Shown here: piece by piece, positions 7,064 to 57,443 of the stretch
Position numbering within the stretch: the stretch's first letter is position 1
Layout: the number at the start of each line of letters is the position of its first letter
Assembly (NCBI RefSeq): GCF_030499535.1
Contig: NZ_JASTLB010000001.1
Coordinates: 496,001-560,000 of the forward strand
Origin: Streptomyces sp. TG1A-8
GTDB taxonomy: Bacteria > Actinomycetota > Actinomycetes > Streptomycetales > Streptomycetaceae
Direction of reading: 5' to 3'
DNA: 64,000 bases
The notes under the pieces: model-generated
The model's input: only the letters and a program-made list of their open reading frames with translations
What the model was told of the DNA's origin: nothing
Database searches by the model: none
Program-made: the position numbers and the translations under genes

Positions 7064-7660
7064 ATGACCCAGCACCAGAGCCGCACGCCTCGGACCGCCA
7101 CGGCCACCCGCACCGGCCGGCGCCGCCCGCACCTCGTACGCGCGACGCTCGCCGCGACCACCGTCGCCGCACTGGGCGTCGCGGGCGCGGGCGCCGCGCA
7201 GGCCGCCGGGGCGGCCACCGCGACCGCGACGCCCACCTGCTCCGTGTCCGGCCTGAGCGCCTCGTTCGGCGAGAGCCTGGCCGGTGGCATGAACCACCAG
7301 GGCGTGGTGGTCAAGCTCCGGAACACCAGCGCCCGCACCTGCCTGCTGCGGGGGTACCCGGGCCTCGGCCTGGAGGACTCCGCCCACCGGACGCTGCACT
7401 CGACCACCCACTGGGGCGACACCTGGTACACCAGGAGCCCCGCCAAGTCCACGCTGACCCTCCGGAAGGGGCAGAGCGCCGAGGCGGTCATATCCTGGAC
7501 GCACGCCAACACCGGCACGCCCGACGCCGTCCACGCCGCGTACCTCCAGATCACCCCGCCGGCCGCGACCGGCCACAAGACCCTCGGGTTCCCGCAGTGG
7601 GTCGACAGCGGCGACCTCCGGGTCACCGCCCTCGCCTACCGGGTGCACGTCGACGGCTGA
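7064..7660 (+). CDS. Secreted DUF4232 protein
   Basis: A 198-residue protein with an Arg-rich N-terminus and a hydrophobic export signal ending near AQAAGA (about residue 49). The remainder matches the DUF4232 pattern: a Cys near the start (TPTCSVSG), the Gly-rich strand LAGGMNHQGVVVKLRN, then the TCLLRGYPGLGL signature with its second Cys. A disulphide between the two is likely. Such proteins are common in Streptomyces secretomes and cell walls, and their function is not established. GAAGGGGAG precedes the ATG at 7064. It is alone, preceded by the direct repeats. Confidence 0.8.
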   Translation: MTQHQSRTPRTATATRTGRRRPHLVRATLAATTVAALGVAGAGAAQAAGAATATATPTCSVSGLSASFGESLAGGMNHQGVVVKLRNTSARTCLLRGYPGLGLEDSAHRTLHSTTHWGDTWYTRSPAKSTLTLRKGQSAEAVISWTHANTGTPDAVHAAYLQITPPAATGHKTLGFPQWVDSGDLRVTALAYRVHVDG

Positions 7661-7900
7661 GGGCGGTGCGGGCGGGCCCTGCCGGCCGGGCGTCCGTCGC
7701 CGAGCCGTCGCCGAGTCGTCGGGGACGGACGGGTCCCCGTGCCGGCGCCCTCCGGCGGCCGCGTCGGGCCGCCGGACGGCGGTGAGCGCAGCGGCTGCGG
7801 CAGGGCCGAAAGGCCGGTCACGTCCGCGCCCTGCGCGTCGCCGGCGGTACACCGGCTCGCGGTCCTTGCCCGACGGCCCCCGCACGGGTGGCGGGCGCCG

Positions 7901-8353: not shown

Positions 8354-8581
8354 TCACTCCTCCCGGGGCCCGATCTCCTTCCCCGCCGCGTCCCGGACGG
8401 TGATCGCCAGCATCGGGCAGATGTCGGAGGCCTCCAGGGCCCGGTCGTCGCCCTCCGGGATGCGCTCGCTCACCGGGCGTGCGCGATCGTCGCCGTTCAG
8501 GGTGAACAGGTCCGGGGCGGCGCCGGCGCACATGCCGGAGCCGATGCAGCGGTCGGGGGCGACCTGCAGGTGCCAGCTCAT
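8354..8581 (-). CDS. 3Fe-4S type ferredoxin, partner of the P450
   Basis: A 75-residue ferredoxin starting MSWHLQVAPDRC (ATG at 8581) with GAGG a few bases upstream. The cluster ligands are DRCIGSGMC (Cys with the central ligand replaced) and DICPMLAI. This is the C-x5-C...CP pattern of small 3Fe-4S or mixed ferredoxins that pass electrons to actinobacterial P450s. It begins 8 bases after the P450 stop in the same direction, so the two are almost certainly cotranscribed and the ferredoxin is the redox partner. No ferredoxin reductase is nearby. Confidence 0.85.
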   Translation of the reverse strand: MSWHLQVAPDRCIGSGMCAGAAPDLFTLNGDDRARPVSERIPEGDDRALEASDICPMLAITVRDAAGKEIGPREE

Positions 8582-8589
8582 GCGCCGCC

Positions 8590-9780
8590 TCACCACCCCA
8601 CCGGCATGACGCGGGGGCCGCGCACCAGCATCTCGGTCTTCCAGGTGATGTCACCGGCCAGGTGCAGCCGGGGGAACCGGGCGACCAGCGCGCCGATGGC
8701 CTCCTGGAGTTCGAGGCGGGCCAGGGGCGCACCGAGGCAGTGGTGGACGCCGTGGCCGAAGCCCAGGTGGGGGTTGCCGGTGCGGGAGATGTCGAGCGTG
8801 CCGGCGGCGGTGAAGCGCAGCGCGTCGCGGTTGGCCGCGCCGATGGCGACCAGCACCGGCTCCCCGGCCCGCACCAGGGTGCCGCCGACCTCGACGTCCT
8901 GTGTGGCGTAGCGGGGCTGGCCGGCTCCGCTGCCCAGGGGGACGAACCGCAGCAGTTCCTCGACCGCGCCCGTGATGAGCGCGGGCTCGGCGCGCAGGCG
9001 GGACAGCTGCCCGGGGTGGTCGAGGAGGGTGAGCACGAAGTTGGGGATCTGGGTGGCGGTGGTCTCGTGGCCGGCGACGAGGATGCCGACGCACAGATCG
9101 ACGAGTTCCAGCTCGGACAGCCGGTCGCCGTGATCGCGTGCCTCGATCAGTGCCGTCATGAGGTCGTCCCGGGGCTGCTCGCGGTGCCCGGTGATCAGCC
9201 GGGCCATGTACGCGCGCAGCTCGTCGCGGTTGCGGTGGAACTCCTCGGCGGTGAGCGAGCTGGTGGACAGGGCGGCGTCGCTCCACTCGCGGAACCGCGG
9301 ACGGTCCTCCTCGGGCACGCCGAGGAGACGGCAGATCACCGCGACCGGAATGGGCAGGGCGTAGCGGTCGACCAGGTCGGCCGGCGGGCCCGCCGCCTCC
9401 ATCCCGTCCAGCAGGGTGGATGTCAGCTGCCTGACCTGGGGGCGGAGCTTCTCGACCTGGCGCACCGTGAACGCCTTGGCGACCAGCGAGCGCAGCCGGG
9501 TGTGGTCGGGCGGGTCCATGCTCAGGATCCCGCTGTCCCGCCTGCCGGCGGAGGCGCGCGGCTCGTCGTGTTCGCGGCCCAGCGCCCGGCTGAAGCGCTG
9601 GTCGCCGAGGACCAGCCGGGCGTCCGCGTAGCGGGTGGCGAGCCAGGCAGGCTCCCCGTAGGGCATCTGGACGCGTAAGAGGCCCGGGGTGTCGCGGGCT
9701 CGTCCGTACGCTTCGGACAGTGCCAGGCCCCGGCTGGAGTTGAAGGGGTAGGCGAGGGGTGCGTGGTCCGCCGTCGTCAT
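8590..9780 (-). CDS. Cytochrome P450 (CYP105/107-like class I)
   Basis: A 396-residue soluble P450. It has the oxygen-activating helix AGHETTA (about residue 236), EELLR as the ExxR motif, and the haem loop FGHGVHHCLGAPLAR with Cys348 as the iron ligand. MDPPDHTRLRSLV is the conserved substrate-recognition region of bacterial P450s. It is a monooxygenase receiving electrons from the ferredoxin just downstream. The substrate cannot be read from sequence. The perfect palindrome 12-29 bases upstream of the start suggests repression by the divergent TetR protein, a layout typical of inducible xenobiotic or secondary-metabolite oxidation. Confidence 0.93.
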   Translation of the reverse strand: MTTADHAPLAYPFNSSRGLALSEAYGRARDTPGLLRVQMPYGEPAWLATRYADARLVLGDQRFSRALGREHDEPRASAGRRDSGILSMDPPDHTRLRSLVAKAFTVRQVEKLRPQVRQLTSTLLDGMEAAGPPADLVDRYALPIPVAVICRLLGVPEEDRPRFREWSDAALSTSSLTAEEFHRNRDELRAYMARLITGHREQPRDDLMTALIEARDHGDRLSELELVDLCVGILVAGHETTATQIPNFVLTLLDHPGQLSRLRAEPALITGAVEELLRFVPLGSGAGQPRYATQDVEVGGTLVRAGEPVLVAIGAANRDALRFTAAGTLDISRTGNPHLGFGHGVHHCLGAPLARLELQEAIGALVARFPRLHLAGDITWKTEMLVRGPRVMPVGW

Positions 9781-13930: not shown

Positions 13931-14622
13931 TCACCGGCGGCCCGCTCGTTCGGCGAGCGCGGCGTACCACTGGTGGGTGTCCCGCCCCGCGGGGCGGTCG
14001 TGTCCGTGCCTGTCCGCCTGCTGCCGTGCGATGCGCCGCAGTTCGCCGAGCGGATCGCGGCCGGGCGGCAGACGCCGGCCGGCCGGTGCCAGGGCGCGGG
14101 CGACGGTCAGGTACTTGTGGGTTTCGAGGGTGTCGGGGTGGTCGGGTCCCAGTTCGCGTGTTCGCCGGGCGGCGACCGCGTCGTATTCGTGTCCGGCTTC
14201 CCGCCAGCGTTCCTGGCAGGCGACGGCCCGGGCGAGCATGCACCGGATGTGCAGGCGCAGCGACGGGTCGGCGTGCGGGTGCTGCGCGATGCGGGCGCCG
14301 AGGTCGCGCAGCCGGGCCTCGCCTTCGGCGAAGCGGGCCGTCTTGACCGGGCCCGGCCCAGCGGGCGGCGGGTGGGGAACGTGTCCGGATGGCCGGGCCG
14401 TAGGTCCGTGCCTCGCCCCGGCCCGGTTCCTCCAGCAGGGCGGCCTGCCGGAAGCGGCCGGGTTCCAGGGTGCGCGGGCCTGCGCGCGGCGAACGCCGAG
14501 GACGGCCGGGCGAAGGGGGCCCAGGGTCGCCGCCAGCGGACCGGCGGTGTCCGCGAGCCTCTGCGCCGCGCGTTCGTGTCCGAACCGGTCGGCGGCCCGG
14601 CCTCCCACAGCACCTCGGTCAT
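13931..14622 (-). pseudogene. Decayed tetratricopeptide-repeat protein
   Basis: The reading starts as MTEVLWEA at 14622, shifts frame near 14595, and continues as QRLADTAGPLAATLGPLRPA. It then breaks again before a clean kinesin-light-chain-like TPR: RFAEGEARLRDLG ... CQERWREAGHEYD ... RELGPDHPDTLETHKYL. Fragments of a further repeat (RPGHPDTFPTRR) appear in another frame near 14380-14420. TPR/NB-ARC-like proteins of this kind are common regulators in Streptomyces and also accompany some peptide-modification systems. At least two frameshifts indicate a dead gene. It lies directly downstream of the small Cys-containing peptide gene. Confidence 0.6.
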
Positions 14623-14713
14623 GGTGTCGGCGCCTCCCGCGCGCGGTGCCGCCCCGCGGATCACCGGAAGGCACCCGGGCGCCGCCCGGGGTCCGTACCG
14701 GCCGCGGGCCGTG

Positions 14714-14869
14714 TCAGACGCAGTACCAGCCGATACAGGTGCTGGCCGCCGCGCCCGCGCGGTCCGGGATCTCCTGCTCCAGTTCGCCGATGACGAGGTC
14801 GGGCTCCTCCTCGGCGGACGGCCGGGTCTCCGGGCGGGCCTGTGCTTCGTGCGTGGTGGCCTGAATCAC
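14714..14869 (-). CDS. Small peptide, candidate RiPP precursor
   Basis: A 51-residue gene starting with GTG (14869-14867), with a strong AGGAGG exactly 6 bases upstream. The first three-quarters is acidic and leader-like (RPSAEEEPDLVIGELEQEI). It is followed by an Ala/Gly junction and the short C-terminus AAASTCIGWYCV, with Ser, Thr and two Cys in the last ten residues. An acidic, helix-prone leader ending in a small-residue site and a Cys/Ser/Thr core is the plan of ribosomally made, modified peptides such as lanthipeptides. It does not end in the F-x-S-x-x pattern of FxSxx peptides. No intact modifying enzyme is adjacent; neighbours are an ABC ATPase upstream and a decayed TPR gene downstream. 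The gene itself is well supported; the class is inference. Confidence 0.5.
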   Translation of the reverse strand: MIQATTHEAQARPETRPSAEEEPDLVIGELEQEIPDRAGAAASTCIGWYCV

Positions 14870-15021
14870 GATGATCCTCCTGGGGGCAAGAGACGATCGG
14901 GAGGTGACGCGCGACCCGGCCGAGCTTTAGGCGCCCGCGGACCGGCAGCGCAGGGTCCGCGTGCGTCAGTTTGCGCCAAGTAGCGCGCATGGGGTGCGAC
15001 TTGTCCCGCGGGTGCCGTCAC

Positions 15022-15903
<882 letters not shown>

Positions 15904-48737: not shown

Positions 48738-57435
<8,698 letters not shown>

Positions 57436-57443
<8 letters not shown>

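Follow-up and report, generated by a model that had tools for sequence, protein, structure and literature searches.

What is a 51-codon open reading frame with the look of a peptide precursor doing with no matching biosynthetic genes beside it? The question is raised by the minus strand of a 64,000-nucleotide stretch of Streptomyces sp. TG1A-8 (contig NZ_JASTLB010000001.1; this whole stretch is the window in what follows), in which a previous reading of the sequence, here called the original prediction, had singled out the frame as an overlooked precursor of a ribosomally synthesized and post-translationally modified peptide (RiPP), and had surmised that a small RiPP system may once have been complete at this site. 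We consider it likely that the gene is a surviving RiPP precursor whose enzyme genes this strain has lost by deletion, and that intact relatives run a proposed oxygenase-linked pathway. The conservation of the precursor, the make-up of the operon, the mostly retained LanM residues, the iron triad and the loss of the enzymes in this strain are seen in sequences or structural models; the reactions, their order and the hydroxylated residue are what we infer from them.

A conserved precursor family

The GTG start with a well-placed AGGAGG reported in the original prediction is confirmed on the minus strand, at a spacing of 6 bases, and the GGAGGA of this ribosome-binding site is retained in all five aligned relatives. 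The translation, VIQATTHEAQARPETRPSAEEEPDLVIGELEQEIPDRAGAAASTCIGWYCV, ends in the tail AAASTCIGWYCV, and its last ten residues, ASTCIGWYCV, indeed contain one Ser, one Thr and two Cys. Sequence comparison indicates that the frame is a genuine gene and not a chance one, because tblastn with the peptide against 295 same-genus genomes detects relatives: a precursor is encoded in nine of them, the window genome included. Three relatives are clear (G223, 76% identity, E 1.8e-22; G189, 67%, 1.3e-16; G248, 58%, 2.4e-13), and five further matches, weak in themselves (E 0.003-0.008), were accepted because each heads the same operon. Two more relatives of 51 residues, each 75% identical, came from a search of 5.8 billion proteins; a plasmid search with the precursor region gave no match.

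All 35 loci that were fetched via the dehydratase described below carry a precursor with the motif [ST]-C-x3/4-Y-C near its C-terminus; loci L013-L020, fetched through the precursor, are excluded from this count, the motif being present there by selection. The pattern used demanded both the tail motif and a leader G-E/D-L, so the presence of a precursor at every dehydratase locus is informative but the exact form of the motif is not independent evidence. Within the tail set (43 loci yielding 24 distinct 40-residue tails, with some genomes represented twice), three residues separate Cys from Tyr in 23 of the 24 tails and four in the remaining one. The leader Asp is preceded by Leu in 8 of the 24 and by Phe in 12, by Pro in the Lysobacter locus L046, and by a residue left unparsed in three tails of Candidatus Stackebrandtia faecavium (L049). 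The last-named locus has three tandem precursors (7071-7196, 7267-7401 and 7674-7802, plus strand) before one dehydratase, and all three carry T-C-x3-Y-C. The original prediction envisaged a conserved tail and a variable middle: the tail is indeed conserved, and it is the N-terminal ~20 residues, not the middle, that vary, the block around DLVIGELE being conserved as well. This leader block is a probable enzyme-recognition segment.

For the window precursor, the ratio of nonsynonymous to synonymous substitution rates (dN/dS) takes values of 0.28 and 0.27 with the two relatives of lowest dN, and of 0.55-1.59 with the five others. Purifying selection on this very short gene is accordingly suggested and not proven.

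The operon in intact relatives

In all eight other precursor genomes the same genes lie 3' of the precursor, in the order precursor, DUF4135-DUF6624 protein of ~800 amino acids, degenerate JmjC-like protein and JmjC oxygenase. The second operon protein (~400 amino acids) has no Pfam match above cut-off in the two examples scanned, and the third, of similar size, belongs to the JmjC family. A survey at one genome per species, which relied on two peptide patterns and is not a full census, yielded 30 loci, mostly from Streptomyces, with two from Nonomuraea and one each from Lysobacter antibioticus and Candidatus Stackebrandtia faecavium. Gene calls and profiles give the same gene order throughout this survey where the sequence suffices, the exception being L049, in which the middle gene is uncalled and the dehydratase called in part. 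The operon is recurrent but uncommon: among 392 same-genus genomes, 13 encode a dehydratase close to full length, and a class-wide sample of 394 genomes contains 2 that do (E <= 1e-60). As to neighbours typical of RiPP systems, for which lanthionine synthetase, radical SAM and YcaO genes had been suggested, the relatives offer the dehydratase domain of LanM, joined in one clade by LanC, and the Pfam matches of the ten operon-region proteins scanned include neither radical SAM nor YcaO. The notion of a once-complete RiPP system is thus supported by homologues that combine a conserved leader block and tail with a position directly 5' of RiPP-type enzymes.

In all four synthetases scanned from intact relatives the LanM dehydratase domain DUF4135 is followed at the C-terminus by DUF6624 in place of a fused LanC, and precomputed Pfam annotation places both domains in 85 of 98 protein clusters, a count restricted to the 7997 candidates with the most shared words. 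Databases name the protein variously as DUF4135 protein, DUF6624 protein or type 2 lanthipeptide synthetase LanM. The predicted fold of the dehydratase is PI3K-like and matches CylM and LicM2; the structural matches mostly cover model residues 80-588 and barely reach DUF6624, so no claim is made for the fold of the latter. Eight of nine LanM catalytic positions are kept or conservatively changed; among the elimination residues, the equivalents of CylM H254, R506 and T512 are kept and D252 is replaced by Glu. A sequence search of the PDB with the dehydratase returned nothing at E 0.01.

The alignment of the DUF4135-DUF6624 protein is matched in 154 of 392 same-genus genomes at E <= 1e-10. In 13 of these the match spans most of the alignment; the remaining matches listed are confined to its C-terminal part. 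In many same-genus genomes (e.g., L076, L078 and L084) DUF6624 occurs as a small stand-alone protein. The motifs GWP, QHA(D) and GTQ are shared by 12 such proteins in an alignment; in the fused-domain sequences inspected, QHA continues with different residues and the last motif reads GTK.

The distribution of LanC follows the form of the precursor tail. All five same-genus genomes with a YCC-ending precursor have a LANC_like match at the operon, and our own LanC profile finds a separate LanC at all 19 YCC loci of the 30-locus survey with enough sequence (the count includes L042, where LanC is only a 105-residue piece; two further YCC loci, L039 and L050, are cut by a contig end). The LanC motifs CHG, WCYG and GLAHG are present in all five YCC-clade proteins examined. 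LanC is found at none of the six short-core loci with more than 5 kb past the JmjC gene (L021, L023, L038, L041, L044 and L049), and L014 and L093 likewise have none; three more short-core loci (L022, L046 and L048) are cut by a contig end, and at L022 and L046 a LanC gene may lie just past that end. At genome scale, a LanC domain search (E <= 1e-5) finds none in two of eight short-core genomes, S. griseoaurantiacus (G223) and S. tricolor, where drafts could hide a gene, and one to five candidate matches in each of the other six. In short-core operons the ring may thus close by a route other than LanC, or not at all. In the loci resembling S. anulatus and S. griseus, a 5'-nucleotidase gene (L016:16424-17377) follows the LanC gene, probably as plain synteny.

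The two JmjC-type proteins are homologous (hhalign 99.9%, E 2.9e-31). The second is predicted to adopt the JmjC fold with its HxD...H iron triad intact, and the first, which shows no conserved HxD across 22 sequences, has a degenerate triad. YcfD is the best structural match of the active protein and the only PDB entry reached by its profile in a sequence search (E 0.002-0.003); the profile of the degenerate protein gave a single match, at chance level. In the model of the active protein the C-terminal part comprises four strands and three helices, and that this part might bind the leader is only an idea.

Loss of the enzymes in the window

DNA similarity to the relatives is colinear from the ribosome-binding site through the precursor and the intergenic region into the start of the dehydratase gene, and falls to background near 14575, so that 13-20 dehydratase codons are left (Table 1). 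The search for remnants was very permissive, with hundreds of chance matches, and we relied on nothing beyond the match to MTEVLWEAGPPTG and the colinear similarity of the DNA; that match, of E 0.028 by itself, is accepted on account of its colinearity with the precursor. Searches of the window genome with the dehydratase, the JmjC protein and its paralogue found none of the three, and intact genomes were matched in the same searches. The hairpin between precursor and synthetase genes has decayed too: its arms are unpaired in the best fold of the window (z = -0.04), and all eight relatives that were folded alongside shuffled controls form it (z -0.90 to -3.86, weak support in some); 15 relatives were also folded without shuffles.

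The original prediction correctly placed the precursor between an ABC ATPase and a decayed TPR gene on the same strand, and neither of the two looks like a part of the system: at the intact loci L013 and L044, blastp with the window genes matches neither frame. The TPR frame matches TPR_12 (E 2e-4) and TPR_10 (E 4e-4), both below the cut-offs, which fits a remnant. Its assignment to an FxSxx-COOH system was rejected, as such peptides have a C-terminal FxSxx and a radical SAM protein, FxsB, and here the tail is TCIGWYCV and no radical SAM protein occurs among those scanned. The ABC ATPase was likewise rejected as a RiPP exporter, its relatives in two other genomes (G024 and G036; 76.6% and 72.1% protein identity) having no adjacent precursor in the gene calls.

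Farther off, ferredoxin-like and cytochrome P450-like frames lie by a divergent TetR-like regulator (8354-9780, minus strand, by eye), unrelated to the precursor; the P450 (8590-9780) was set aside as a tailoring enzyme at a distance of 5 kb. An 8.7-kb frame on the plus strand (48738-57443), a possible nonribosomal peptide synthetase, has weak blastp similarity to a 530-residue protein of L044.

Table 1. Features of the precursor locus in the window
Feature	Position	Strand	Basis or remark
Precursor peptide gene	14714..14869	minus	51 codons; start codon GTG 14869-14867, stop 14716-14714; homologues
Ribosome-binding site AGGAGG	14876..14881	minus	6 bases 5' of GTG
Conserved leader block DLVIGELEQEIP, residues 24-35	14765..14800	minus	alignment of relatives
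Core motif T-C-I-G-W-Y-C, residues 44-50	14720..14740	minus	fits family motif [ST]-C-x3/4-Y-C
Decayed hairpin, precursor-synthetase intergenic region, arms GGTGCC...GGCACC remaining	14645..14675	minus	
Remnant of DUF4135-DUF6624 gene start, MTEVLWEAGPPTG	14584..14622	minus	colinear similarity
TPR-like fragment	14108..14248 (frame 13931-14674)	minus	within degraded stretch where the synthetase would be expected to continue
ABC transporter ATP-binding protein	15022..15903	minus	real gene; neighbour

A proposed pathway and its alternatives

In the pathway that we propose for the intact relatives, the leader block (D-L-V-I-G-E-L-E) would recruit the enzymes, and the LanM-type kinase/lyase domain would phosphorylate the invariant Thr/Ser beside the first Cys and eliminate the phosphate to leave a dehydro residue. 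LanC would then close (methyl)lanthionine rings in the YCC operons, and in the short-core operons, which have no LanC gene, the ring would close otherwise or not at all. The JmjC oxygenase would hydroxylate a core residue, for which the invariant Tyr is our guess, and its degenerate paralogue would serve as a partner or as the subunit that binds the leader. In the window strain the peptide, if made, is probably unmodified. A bolder version holds that the intact short-core relatives make a new class of RiPP: LanM-DUF6624 would dehydrate the Thr in the Thr-Cys-x3-Tyr-Cys motif, ring closure would be governed or catalysed by DUF6624 instead of LanC, and the JmjC pair, made up of an active and a leader-binding member, would hydroxylate the ring, perhaps on the invariant Tyr; we regard this version as speculative and rather unlikely.

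Several observations weigh against the reading of an orphaned precursor with a dehydratase-oxygenase pathway in its relatives. The DxH His (CylM H349) has given way to Ile, Gly or Ala in all 27 dehydratases compared; since CylM with the H349A mutation yields little dehydrated product, the reaction may be slow here, or other chemistry may take its place. The dehydratase model has middling confidence (pLDDT 67), the NCBIfam LanM model scores 41 and 17 bits against a cut-off of 304, and DUF6624 is a domain without assigned function. Inspection of the gene calls by eye showed no conserved protease or exporter (LanT), the neighbours being incompletely Pfam-scanned, and the product of the pathway is a prediction from sequence. 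The loss of His from all 27 proteins would also suit an alternative that we hold to be quite improbable, namely that the DUF4135-DUF6624 protein phosphorylates Thr/Ser or just binds the peptide, and that the product is phosphorylated or hydroxylated and closed by a disulfide between the two conserved Cys, not a lanthipeptide; so would the missing LanC, both beside the six sufficiently covered short-core operons and in the genomes of S. griseoaurantiacus and S. tricolor. Opposed to it are the retained elimination residues, with D252 present as Glu, and the intact motifs of the five YCC-clade LanC proteins, which would require a dehydro residue as substrate.

Two points bear on the window gene itself. 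Immediately before the leader block it has Pro23, against Leu in all seven short-core relatives compared; as the Lysobacter locus L046 shares the Pro, this alone does not indicate decay. The low dN/dS with two relatives could mean that the peptide is still selected. Together with the intact frame, start codon and ribosome-binding site, this selection signal would agree with continued use of the orphan precursor, acted on in trans by another enzyme or by the strain's canonical LanM 5.5 Mb away, a 977-residue protein at ~6.05 Mb of G000:C1 (DUF4135 E 1e-113, LANC E 3e-14). We judge this very improbable, given that the distant LanM likely has a precursor of its own, a 73-residue frame seen by eye just 3' of it (L098:8432-8653), and that the precursor-synthetase hairpin has decayed. 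This class II LanM (G000:C1 ~6048750-6051683, or L098:8750-11683, minus strand, as is the 73-residue frame) is the sole DUF4135 match in the strain at E <= 1e-5. The suspicion that the 51 codons are a chance frame or an ordinary small protein with no link to RiPPs draws on the abundance of spurious frames in GC-rich DNA and on the variable N-terminal residues; it is refuted by the conserved leader and tail with the same enzyme operon adjoining, and we give it virtually no weight.

Relation to known systems

The orphaned-precursor reading places the operon closest to the class II lanthipeptides (LanA/LanM), with which it shares a leader, a core with Thr/Ser and Cys, a DUF4135 domain with most CylM catalytic residues and, in the YCC clade, LanC. 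Unlike in those systems, LanC is unfused here, DUF6624 stands where it would be, DxH has lost its His, the core is very short, a JmjC pair is present, and the short-core operons have no adjoining LanC. Fusion of DUF4135 to something besides a normal LanC recalls the dehydrazoles and LanMbC, where CcaM has a class III cyclase domain and partners with YcaO (PMC10676384); neither YcaO nor a class III cyclase is among our ten scanned operon proteins, and the C-terminal domain is DUF6624. DUF6624 is reported from graspetide groups 18, 20, 23 and 42, and in group 18 oxygenases co-occur highly too (PMC13097080). This is a parallel to the presence of DUF6624 and oxygenases in the present RiPP cluster, unlike which, however, graspetide clusters have a graspetide synthetase, absent among the operon proteins scanned here, in which the fusion partner of DUF6624 is a LanM dehydratase.

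The oxygenase, for its part, shares the JmjC fold and iron triad with the ribosomal oxygenases YcfD, NO66 and MINA53 and with BipG of biphenomycin, described as a RiPP gamma-ornithine hydroxylase of the JmjC type (PMC12707348). In contrast to these, the core here has no invariant Orn, Arg or His, and two paralogues, one without the triad, accompany a lanthipeptide-type dehydratase. RRE-like domains fused to JmjC (PF08007), with closest bacterial homologues in RiPP-like contexts, have been reported (PMC12710340); the JmjC protein here matches PF08007, and this report anticipates part of the present finding. The combination of lanthipeptide, JmjC and LanM was not found in a literature search that left most subscription journals outside; lanthipeptide and JmjC came up together in work on biphenomycin and on recognition elements, and DUF6624 in a single paper. 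The operon is apparently a variant of class II lanthipeptide-like biosynthesis undescribed in the literature searched.

An orphan 51-codon gene from a single genome has led to a recurrent biosynthetic operon. With one precursor and three proteins, the system is a compact case for two questions, the role of DUF6624 in RiPP clusters and the ability of a LanM dehydratase to work in a LanC-free pathway.
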